Origin: a virus
Direction: 5' to 3' (one strand)
DNA: 31,022 bases
IMG/VR virus record: IMGVR_UViG_3300044695_001234
Location: 1 to 31,022 of that record
In this document: in pieces, positions 3,018 to 24,868 of the stretch
Layout: every line of letters starts with the position of its first letter
Position numbering within the stretch: position 1 is the stretch's first letter
Notes under the pieces: generated by a model
What the model was told of the DNA's origin: nothing
Database searches by the model: none
What the model saw: the letters and a program-made list of their open reading frames with translations, nothing else
Made by a program: the position numbers and the translations under genes

Positions 3018-4004
3018 ATGAATATCGTTTTTTTTGTACACGCTTGGGCTGGAACTCATAACTCGGGCGCCGAGTGGACCGTTCAGCATTACGCCAAATA
3101 TTTCCACCAAAAAGGCTGTAATATTGAGGTGATTTTACCCGAGGGCCAAATTTATCCCGACGGCGAAAAGTTTAGTTTTATCAAGTTTATTACTGGCTAT
3201 TATTCAAACGACTTTTTTTTAGCCTTACAAAATGCAAGCGTAATATTTACGCATTTAGATAATACAGGCGTTGCAATTAATTGGTCAAGACAATTTAAAA
3301 AGCAATTGATTTTTTTAAGTCACAACGATTCCGATTATAGAAACGTGCGATTTAAAGCGCAAAACATTCACGTTGTTTATAACAACAAGGCAAACGAAAA
3401 GAATGTACAAAACGGGCCTTACCCAAATGCGTCGATTGTTTGCAAGCCTCCCATTTTTCCTGAGGACGTAAAATATAACCGCAAGCATGGGCAATACATT
3501 ACCCTAATAAATTGTAACGAAAATAAAGGCGGCCAAATATTAATCGAACTGGCAAAGCGATTGCCTAAGCGTAAATTTCTTGGCGTGCTTGGTAGTTATG
3601 GCGAGCAAATTATGGACGACACTCTAAAAAATTTAAAGTATGTTGCGCAAACGCCTGACGTGCATTTGATTTATGGCAAAACAAACATTGTGCTTGTTCC
3701 ATCGTTTTATGAGTCCTATGGACGTGTAGGTTTGGAGGCGGCTATTAATCGACTGCCAGTTATTTGCACACCAACAGACGGATTAAAGGAATGTCTTGGC
3801 GCTGCTGGCCTTTACTTTGACCGCGACGACATTGAGGGAATGGCTGCAAAGATTGATGAGTTAATGAGTGACGAGATACTTTACGACTTTCACCAAAATA
3901 TAATGAGAAACCTTGCAGAGGAACGCCTTAAATACCAAGACCAAGAACTAGAAAGATTCTTTAATTTTATCGTTGACAAAGCAAAGAAACAATACAATGA
4001 GTGA
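3018..4004 (+). CDS. GT4-family (GT-B fold) glycosyltransferase
   Basis: The protein is 328 residues. The N-terminus (IVFFVHAWAGTHNSGAEW) matches the acceptor-side Rossmann domain of GT4 enzymes. The C-terminal domain has the family's donor-binding motif PSFYESYGRVGLEAA with the E-x7-E pair, followed by a CTPTDGLKE loop. It is the first gene after the capsid terminator. Its last codons overlap the next gene's ATG (3997-4004), so it is coupled to the head-tail connector. Together with the GT25 enzyme it brackets the capsid gene, so virion glycosylation is a reasonable guess, though host surface modification is not excluded. Acceptor and donor are unknown. Confidence 0.85.
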   Translation: MNIVFFVHAWAGTHNSGAEWTVQHYAKYFHQKGCNIEVILPEGQIYPDGEKFSFIKFITGYYSNDFFLALQNASVIFTHLDNTGVAINWSRQFKKQLIFLSHNDSDYRNVRFKAQNIHVVYNNKANEKNVQNGPYPNASIVCKPPIFPEDVKYNRKHGQYITLINCNENKGGQILIELAKRLPKRKFLGVLGSYGEQIMDDTLKNLKYVAQTPDVHLIYGKTNIVLVPSFYESYGRVGLEAAINRLPVICTPTDGLKECLGAAGLYFDRDDIEGMAAKIDELMSDEILYDFHQNIMRNLAEERLKYQDQELERFFNFIVDKAKKQYNE

Positions 4005-23573: not shown

Positions 23574-23938
23574 CACGCGAGGAAGCAATTTTGGAACTTA
23601 ACCATAGGGCGACCCAAAAGTACTTGGTATACTTGGCGCTCCAAGAAATAATGCTTGATTACTACGAAGATGTGACAATGCTTAAGGCTTTTGATTGTGA
23701 TCTAAAGACCAAACACAAAAATATGATTAACGCATTAAAGCGTAAGTCTACCGAGGCGTTTAGGTTTTTGGAAAATTACGACGGCGGCGAGGTAACTATT
23801 AAACAGTTCCACGAGTTCGTGAGTTTATTTGAGCGCTTGCACAATTCAATCGACCAGGGCGGTGCATTATTTCACGACTGCTTGGCAGCGATTGAGCAAA
23901 TTTTAAACGATTATGAAAAGGCGCAAAGTAACGGATAA
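23570..23938 (+). CDS. Helical hypothetical protein
   Basis: The protein is 122 residues, entirely helical by appearance (TREEAILELNHRATQKYLVY, MINALKRKSTEAFRFLENY, AAIEQILNDYEKAQ), without membrane segments. No family is recognised. It overlaps the preceding gene by four bases and the following HTH gene by 26, so it belongs to the same transcript. Confidence 0.68.
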   Translation: MTREEAILELNHRATQKYLVYLALQEIMLDYYEDVTMLKAFDCDLKTKHKNMINALKRKSTEAFRFLENYDGGEVTIKQFHEFVSLFERLHNSIDQGGALFHDCLAAIEQILNDYEKAQSNG

Positions 23939-24062
23939 AGAAAAAGATTTAATCTTTGAAGGCTGGCAAGACCGAAAGCGAATTAAGGTTATTGCTGCGG
24001 AACTTGGCAGATGTTATGGCACAATTTATACTGAACTAAAGCGTCGGTATTTAGTTGGATAA
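23913..24062 (+). CDS. 49-residue HTH micro-protein
   Basis: The product KRRKVTDKEKDLIFEGWQDR, then KRIKVIAAELGRCYGTIYTELKRR, is a single homeodomain-like HTH with a basic N-terminus. Its 'I..iA.eLgR...TI..ELKRR' core is similar to that of transposase-type and phage HTH units. The gene overlaps the end of the previous one. Its last codons contain the -33 TTG of the promoter for the structured RNA. Confidence 0.68.
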   Translation: MKRRKVTDKEKDLIFEGWQDRKRIKVIAAELGRCYGTIYTELKRRYLVG

Positions 24063-24082
24063 ATTAAAAATTGTTATATTTG
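24055..24082 (+). promoter_or_regulatory. Promoter of the structured RNA
   Basis: TTG (24055-24057), 17 nt, TATATTTG (24075-24082) is a perfect match to the Bacteroidota scheme TTG-N17-23-TAnnTTTG. The expected start, about 5-7 bases later, coincides with the first base of hairpin 1. Confidence 0.75.
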
Positions 24083-24088
24083 TTTATC

Positions 24089-24174
24089 GAGTCATTTTTG
24101 AGGTAGGAGCCAAAAATGATTCCATAGGTTAACTAAACCTAGCCTGTCAGACTCCTACCTGGCAGGCTTTTTTG
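24089..24174 (+). ncRNA. Small structured RNA with three hairpins and loop-loop pairing
   Basis: Hairpin 1: TCATTTTTG (24092-24100) pairs with CAAAAATGA (24111-24119), extendable to 24089/24122 with one G.U; its 10-nt loop is AGGTAGGAGC. Hairpin 2: TAGGTT (24125-24130) pairs with AACCTA (24136-24141). Hairpin 3: GCCTGTC (24142-24148) pairs with GGCAGGC (24161-24167, one G.U) and is followed by TTTTTT, so it is an intrinsic terminator. The loop of hairpin 3 contains CTCCTACCT (24152-24160), the perfect 9-nt complement of AGGTAGGAG in the loop of hairpin 1. A promoter lies directly in front. No meaningful reading frame lies in it. It could be an independent sRNA or the leader of the replication gene, whose ATG is at 24179. 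I do not know a described family with this layout. Confidence 0.72.
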
Positions 24175-24178
24175 TTTT

Positions 24179-24868
24179 ATGGAGGGTAAAAAATCTTTTG
24201 TATTGTACACGGATCAAAGAGAAGTCTTTGAGGAATTGAGCGACGAGGACGCTGGAAAATTGATTAAGCATATTTTTGCCTATGTCAATGACGAGGACCC
24301 AATAACAGACGATAAACTTTTAAAAGTTGCGTTTTTGCCAATAAAGACACAACTAAAAAGGGACCTAAAAACATGGGAAAACAAACAGGAACAACGAAAA
24401 GAAGCGGCAAAGAAATCCGTTGAATCTAGGCAACGAACGTTAACGAGCGTTAACGACCGTTCAATTTCGTTTGGTGTAAATGGTAATGTAAATGATAATG
24501 TTATTGTAAATGATAATGTTATTGTAAATGATAATGTAAATAAACAAATAAGCGCTGGCGCGTTTTTGTCTTTGGAAGATATTTTTATTGATTTTAAAAA
24601 AGAAAAACCTTTAAAGCGTCCGTATTTTGATAGAATGGCCCAAATACATTCTACCGATACCAAAACAATCGAAAAGCAGTTTGAAAAATGGGCAATTTTA
24701 AAAGAGGGAGAAAATATGACAATAGCCAAGGCTGAAAATAGTTTTAACCTTTACCTTGTAAACAATTTAAAAACGAGTTACAAGCCATCCGAAAAACCAA
24801 AAAGTCGAAACGTTTTCGACGAAATTTATGAAGATTTGCAAAAACAAAAACACCTAAAAAATGAATGA
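24179..24868 (+). CDS. DUF6291-like replication protein
   Basis: The protein is 229 residues. The N-terminal 80 residues (KSFVLYTDQREVFEELSDED, then LIKHIFAYVNDED and VAFLPIKTQLKRD) follow the DUF6291 pattern seen in phage replication modules. A low-complexity linker of Asn/Val/Asp (about 99-121) links it to a C-terminal domain (FIDFKKEKPLKRPYFDRMA...). Such two-domain proteins with Asn-rich linkers are typical of replisome organisers that bind an origin in their own gene. The DNA under the linker contains iteron-like repeats. The ATG lies 5 bases behind the RNA's terminator, so expression should depend on read-through or on the RNA's state. Confidence 0.7.
   Translation: MEGKKSFVLYTDQREVFEELSDEDAGKLIKHIFAYVNDEDPITDDKLLKVAFLPIKTQLKRDLKTWENKQEQRKEAAKKSVESRQRTLTSVNDRSISFGVNGNVNDNVIVNDNVIVNDNVNKQISAGAFLSLEDIFIDFKKEKPLKRPYFDRMAQIHSTDTKTIEKQFEKWAILKEGENMTIAKAENSFNLYLVNNLKTSYKPSEKPKSRNVFDEIYEDLQKQKHLKNE
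24432..24550 (+). other. Candidate replication origin: iterons plus AT-rich repeats
   Basis: Three 10-bp units stand in exact tandem: AACGAACGTT (24432-24441), AACGAGCGTT (24442-24451) and AACGACCGTT (24452-24461). Each is a palindrome of the form AACGNNCGTT, and all lie on the same helix face. About 15 bases later a very AT-rich tract has two identical 18-bp units (GTAAATGATAATGTTATT at 24488-24505 and 24506-24523) with partial units on both sides (24476-24540). Iterons plus an AT-rich tract inside the initiator gene is the layout of the lambda origin. Confidence 0.55.

Follow-up and report, generated by a model that had tools for sequence, protein, structure and literature searches.

The window analysed here, a phage record from IMG/VR with a length of 31,022 bp, carries at positions 24179-24868 of the plus strand a gene for a DUF6291 protein of 229 aa (Pfam PF19808, E 4e-26), and the stretch immediately 5′ of it holds a compact leader on the same strand. 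A promoter of the Bacteroidetes type, recognized from the sequence, occupies 24055-24082 (TTGG at 24055-24058, −7 box TATATTTG at 24075-24082, spacing 16 nt), and transcription would be expected to start at ~24088, ~7 nt downstream of the −7 box. The folds place hairpin 1, the 5′ hairpin, at 24089-24122, with a 12-bp stem and a 10-nt loop at 24101-24110, and a spacer hairpin (hairpin 2) at 24125-24141, followed by an intrinsic terminator at 24142-24173 that is evident from both sequence and fold (9-bp G+C-rich stem at 24142-24167, T6 at 24168-24173). After the T6 come GTTTT and then the ATG at 24179. The consensus promoter, the three hairpins and the T-run 5 nt ahead of the DUF6291 ATG, all reported in a first-pass annotation of this DNA, are present in the window sequence. 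That annotation had also described a perfect 9-nt complementarity between two of the loops; it is exact, with the loop 1 sequence AGGTAGGAG (24101-24109) being the reverse complement of the loop 3 sequence CTCCTACCT (24152-24160), but the last C and T belong to the terminator stem, and the pure loop-loop pairing (the kiss) is 7 bp. A 49-codon ORF at 23914-24062, encoding a small helix-turn-helix-like protein (MKRRKVTDKEKDLIFEGW...), has its 3′ end inside the leader promoter region, and its terminal residues, ..RYLVG, recur 5′ of the leader in many relatives.

The predicted fold of the window leader has a free energy of -37.3 kcal/mol, compared with -22.3 ± 3.2 kcal/mol in 200 dinucleotide shuffles (z -4.7, with 0 of 200 as good), and in its final form it retains all hairpins. 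Within the 31,022-bp window this is the sole strong element of its kind, present as a single copy in the record, and a search elsewhere in the window for a second site complementary to the loop found none. Calculated as free duplexes, kisses of 7-11 bp have energies of -9 to -18 kcal/mol. While the terminator is still incomplete, the predicted folding path allows the 5′ strand of hairpin 2 to pair with the 5′ arm of the terminator (24123-24149, AUAGGUUA/UAGCCUGU), a possible additional antiterminator that is not clearly conserved.

When this upstream region is shuffled, 1.5% of the shuffles contain a 9-nt inverted repeat spaced 25-85 nt apart, and the match in the window alone is therefore only suggestive; it becomes certain through the comparative data. 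Relatives were retrieved by their DUF6291 protein and not by the RNA, and their upstream regions were then inspected. By eye, promoter, hairpin 1, terminator and ATG stand at the same distance at 44 of 47 DUF6291 loci, with strong divergence at L165-L167, and a leader is missing from the DUF6291 genes of L168, L169 and L170. In the homologues, hairpin 1 is immediately preceded by a TAnnTTTG-like box (sometimes TATATTCG), and its stem is widely divergent in sequence with the pairing largely retained; hairpin 2 varies in sequence and size, and the terminator T-run is kept. The loop pairs at these loci include GTAGGAG/CTCCTAC, GTCGGAG/CTCCGAC, GTCGCAG/CTGCGAC, GTGGTAG/CTACCAC, GTGAGAG/CTCTCAC, GTGGAAG/CTTCCAC and GAGTGAA/TTCACTC. 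Loop 3 (ACUCCUAC) resembles a universal stretch of 16S rRNA, and a reading built on that resemblance was dropped because other phages use other loops.

An automatic parser, which locates both hairpins without requiring complementarity, parsed 32 protein-anchored loci with 10 distinct loop combinations, all of which match by 7-9 nt, while swapped partners match by 4.2 nt on average. Seven distinct kiss pairs (one of them from the cultured phage lillamy) are 100% paired, and this full pairing was reached by 0 of 5000 column shuffles and, among the 5040 permutations, by the identity alone. Between two loci whose next genes are 98% identical (L243 and L320), loop 1 has changed from T to A and loop 3 shows the matching change from A to T. 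Kisses of 7 nt occur in 20-40% of per-locus shuffle tests and are hence weak singly, the strength lying in the comparison across loci, where locus counts are not counts of independent events and metagenome contigs are fragments. Collecting related phages and looking for covariation, as the first-pass annotation proposed, thus gave a strongly positive result, and loop changes without compensation, the outcome it had named as refuting such an RNA, were not seen. Chance complementarity, or inverted repeats at the DNA level with no role in RNA, could account for a single 9-nt match (1.5% per region), but compensatory changes in many lineages, together with the shared orientation of promoter and T-run, leave that explanation with a negligible probability, and for the RNA it is ruled out by the covariation. 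These sequence comparisons show that the loop-loop pairing of the leader RNA is real, being preserved in unrelated viruses by compensating mutations. Several loop types (those of L139, L152 and L153) share a C-A mismatch at one position of the hairpin-1 stem, and diverged leaders at L421 (1066-1200), L429 (1080-1200) and L401-L403 carry the pairs GTTCCACGC/GCGTGGAAC, TGTCGG/CCGACA (6-nt loops) and GTTGCAG/CTGCAAC.

Among cultured phages, Flavobacterium phages 11b (CGGGCAGG/CCTGCCCG), lillamy9-1 (GTGAGACG/CGTCTCAC) and elemoA (TGAGAGC/GCTCTCA) have the element just 5′ of a short operon with DUF6291, which in lillamy9-1 and elemoA also includes a primase, and the leader of Cellulophaga phage phi13:2 kisses through CTCTCACAA/TTGTGAGAG. 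In all four the apical region of the terminator is larger and the kiss lies inside it. A BLAST search of the window leader against cultured phages returned no match, as expected for a motif that is free of fixed sequence. In bacterial and MAG genomes, 1 of 11 DUF6291 loci seems, by eye, to carry a leader (MAG contig L329).

The same arrangement, in the window and its relatives a promoter, a hairpin-1 loop complementary over at least 7 nt to the apical loop of the next terminator, and a start codon within ~20 nt of the T-run (Bacteroidetes type), stands 5′ of genes for DUF6291, Lin1244_N (which matches a replication-initiation PHROG), a DnaD-like helicase loader (MSGWIK...) and HTH_36 initiators (L228, L104), as well as 5′ of DNA methylase, HNH endonuclease, AntA/KilAC antirepressor and radical-SAM genes. 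Because these downstream genes are unrelated, the common factor is the element and no single gene product. Loop types and downstream genes are shuffled with respect to each other; AGGTAGGAG, for example, precedes DUF6291, Lin1244_N and DnaD-like genes. When the DnaD-like protein and a gut-phage replication protein served as anchors, a kissing leader was found at 54 of 97 loci, with 22 kisses of at least 9 nt compared with none in shuffled sequence. The genes behind the leader are early ones, for the most part for DNA replication; its layout is specific neither to replication genes nor to the phage group of the window. One phage contig with a kissing leader (L062, at ~2945) also contains an Rfam match to the DUF805b RNA at 389-425.

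A second type was recovered with a complementarity-based finder that was written for this analysis and tuned by eye; it is approximate, and some of its weak-stem matches in coding sequence are due to chance. The finder returned matches in contigs with ordinary TATAAT promoters and with portal proteins nearest to those of gut phages, hosts being assigned by distant similarity alone. In this gut type, represented by 13 cassettes in five contigs, the hairpin is typically CGATG-loop-CATCG, the kiss extends over 9-11 nt, hairpin 2 is missing and the start codon lies 10-20 nt past the T-run. One contig of 70.9 kb (G001, loci L339-L342) has six cassettes with loops that are all different (GATGACGGC, GGTACCAGC, GGTAGGAGC, GATTGCGGC, AGATTGGCCC and GGTTGCAGCTA), each immediately 5′ of a ribosome site and start codon; one of them lies ahead of a radical-SAM gene that contains an intein-like and LAGLIDADG insertion. 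When a loop-independent stem pattern was used, all matches in the gut-type promoter context had a kiss. Between hairpin 1 and the terminator, 14 of 15 gut cassettes have an extended −10 box (TGnTAyAnT-like); among distinct cassettes it is present in 13 of 14, compared with a shuffle mean of 0.4 from a control that ignores cassette relatedness. To judge from the sequence, this inner box would make RNAs with the terminator and without hairpin 1. Three other gut phages, taken as controls for the similarity of their portal proteins (Flavonifractor phage Chenonceau, a faecal phage scaffold and part of Dulem virus 33), showed no convincing kissing leader, and the layout is therefore not universal. 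The leaders of the two lineages may share ancestry or may have converged.

At the gathering score, Rfam release 15 (including RF03085 abiF, riboswitches and C4 antisense RNA) gave no match, and the best sub-threshold match (E 0.36) covers a hairpin plus terminator only. The leader sequence is too variable for a covariance model, and such models cannot carry the kiss. A literature search of open-licence papers likewise returned no description of a kissing-terminator leader, which together with the Rfam search bears out the initial impression that no described family has this layout. The leader is easily missed, as it has no conserved sequence and its key pairing is a pseudoknot. Among its closest parallels are the attenuators of pT181 repC and pIP501 repR, which also combine a rep-gene leader, a 5′ hairpin that senses by kissing and an intrinsic terminator before the gene, and for which orthogonal loop variants are possible (PMC4878617, PMC5703833); the antiterminator of pT181 is part of the 5′ hairpin and is controlled through kissing (PMC4878617). 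The phage leader shares with them the intrinsic terminator between the promoter and a replication(-like) gene. However, their regulator is a counter-transcribed antisense RNA and the 5′ arm of their terminator is what the antiterminator pairs with, whereas hairpin 1 of the phage leader pairs with the terminator loop plus 0-2 adjoining bases and not with the 5′ arm. Minus-strand TAnnTTTG boxes within 250 nt downstream were found for 7 of 44 instances, at scattered positions, and none lies near the window leader. With no conserved counter-transcribed promoter and no 5′-arm pairing, the leader is not a plasmid rep-gene attenuator, although it would probably work like one.

The parallel drawn at first pass with the IncB/IncI plasmids holds in so far as long-range RNA pairing precedes a replication initiator gene (repA/repZ of I-complex plasmids), but is not supported in detail. 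The IncI pseudoknot acts on translation through a leader peptide and the antisense RNAI (PMC10286972); there is no kiss with an intrinsic terminator there, and the phage leader is without a conserved minus-strand promoter for such an antisense RNA. A search for a leader peptide among plus-strand ORFs of at least 50 aa found none across 24083-24178. An unusual role for the terminator loop has been proposed for the HMP-PP (thiS) riboswitch, in which a pseudoknot at the terminator tip suppresses termination (PMC6478431). That riboswitch, however, needs a ligand and strictly conserved nucleotides, while the phage leader conserves complementarity alone.

The kiss most likely modulates termination, because polymerase must pass a strong-looking terminator and because, of all relations within the leader, only the one that links hairpin 1 to the terminator loop is conserved. 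Our preferred reading, which we hold tentatively and short of calling it probable, is that the leader opens an early phage transcription unit and acts there in cis as a transcription attenuator, independently of the gene that follows, with the kiss relieving termination. RNA polymerase would start ~7 nt past the −7 box, at hairpin 1, and would meet a strong intrinsic terminator ~80 nt later, ahead of the gene. The pre-folded hairpin-1 loop could then capture the terminator loop while the latter is emerging, and the 7-11 bp duplex across the terminator loop would hinder the stem from closing in the brief time it has, allowing a fraction of the polymerases to read through into the replication gene. 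Where hairpin 1 is occupied or missing, the terminator would work and only the short RNA would be made. This terminated RNA, which has the same loops, could compete in trans and provide a feedback that rises with template number, and in the gut type a terminator-only RNA from the inner promoter could compete likewise. In the Bacteroidetes type no second promoter was seen; the trans-feedback step draws on the gut type alone. We infer that the kiss lowers rather than raises termination, and likewise the feedback in trans and the link to genome copy number. Relief is favoured since a 7-11 bp duplex across the loop should impede stem closure, since the gut-type match extends past the needs of a relaxed loop-loop complex and since the terminator-tip pseudoknot is proposed to act in this direction in the HMP-PP riboswitch (PMC6478431). 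A terminator between promoter and gene needs a bypass and the terminators are textbook-strong; the kiss therefore more plausibly relieves termination than assists it.

The position of the kiss, in the terminator loop and barely entering the 5′ arm that a classical antiterminator would occupy, speaks against relief. Loop-loop complexes of 6-7 bp can coexist with both stems, so that kiss and terminator need not exclude each other. The effect could thus have the opposite sign, with the kiss locking or speeding the terminator hairpin and the gene being off until a ribosome, protein or RNA opens hairpin 1. The compatibility of kiss and terminator stem as kissing hairpins, a pairing that avoids the 5′ arm, and the retention of all hairpins in the final fold agree with this, but the terminators look strong unaided, and a terminator before genes needed early would require a further factor, for which no sequence conservation is seen; we regard it as unlikely. 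Slightly more credible, though still rather unlikely, is that the terminated RNA of ~80-85 nt is itself the product, with the kiss giving compactness and stability, and acts in trans on RNA or protein of the host or the phage; the downstream gene would then be merely a neighbour reached by leaky readthrough or upstream transcription. The separate promoter and terminator, the compact stable fold and the precedent of phage AbiF, where the leader terminator halts most transcription and the leader RNA, RCd22, is abundant (PMC12373285), are in line with such a product. No target sequence is conserved, however; loops and stems vary freely while the pairing holds, and one phage may have several copies, each linked to the start of another gene.

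Specificity of another kind is suggested by the discrete loop types in close relatives and the different loops among the copies of one phage, which resemble specificity groups: a resident phage might shut down the leader of an incoming phage whose loop type matches its own. The CI RNA of phage P4 and the c4 RNA of phage P1 are precedents for RNA-mediated exclusion; both derive from a leader, come from the same strand and use loop complementarity to act on the operon they belong to. Their partners, however, are separate RNAs made by processing, while those of the phage leader are both part of a single 80-nt RNA, which finishes with a terminator of its own and has no Rfam match. The related genomic loci that were checked are mostly without a leader, and the window holds no second complementary site, which makes loop-specific exclusion or incompatibility quite improbable. 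More improbable again is a ligand- or protein-sensing riboswitch, or an RNA like those of type III toxin-antitoxin systems or AbiF. Such systems usually have a leader with a terminator before a gene, and the phage-encoded AbiF RNA RCd22 (RF03085) has a phage promoter, an RNA of ~100-130 nt and a terminator before its gene, with the majority of transcripts terminating (PMC12373285). RCd22, however, has abiF motifs and an Abi_2 gene downstream, whereas the kissing-leader loci have no RF03085 or other Rfam match, no conserved unpaired nucleotides and an RNA that is not repeated, and their downstream genes are mutually unrelated and not toxin-like.

The kissing-loop leader is apparently an undescribed gene switch, a putative variant of the transcription attenuator. 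Terminator loops are usually regarded as irrelevant to termination (PMC6478431); here, in many phages, the loop is conserved as the partner of a hairpin upstream of it, and two matched mutations can change the specificity. If the attenuator reading is true, these leaders would offer synthetic biology a compact, ready-made set of orthogonal attenuators and would explain, in concrete and testable terms, how the dose of replication-initiation genes is set in these phages. A wider proposal, which we consider doubtful, is that they form a sequence-free family of RNA switches in phages of at least two lineages, each attenuator being made orthogonal by its loop pair, with the same-strand terminated RNA serving as its own antisense regulator and replication-gene expression falling as template copies rise.

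Control in cis of a replication gene, as suggested at first pass, is plausible, as the leader precedes DUF6291, Lin1244_N/replication-initiation, DnaD-like and HTH_36 genes in different phages, but identification of the window DUF6291 protein as the initiator is unsupported, its match to a primosomal protein PHROG being weak (E 9e-6). The elemoA homologue carries the annotation "replication protein." Inside the window gene, an in-frame repeat at 24479-24543 (VNDNVIVNDNV...) varies in length among homologues. Elsewhere in the window, two glycosyltransferase-looking genes (366-944 and 3018-4004) lie amid phage structural genes.
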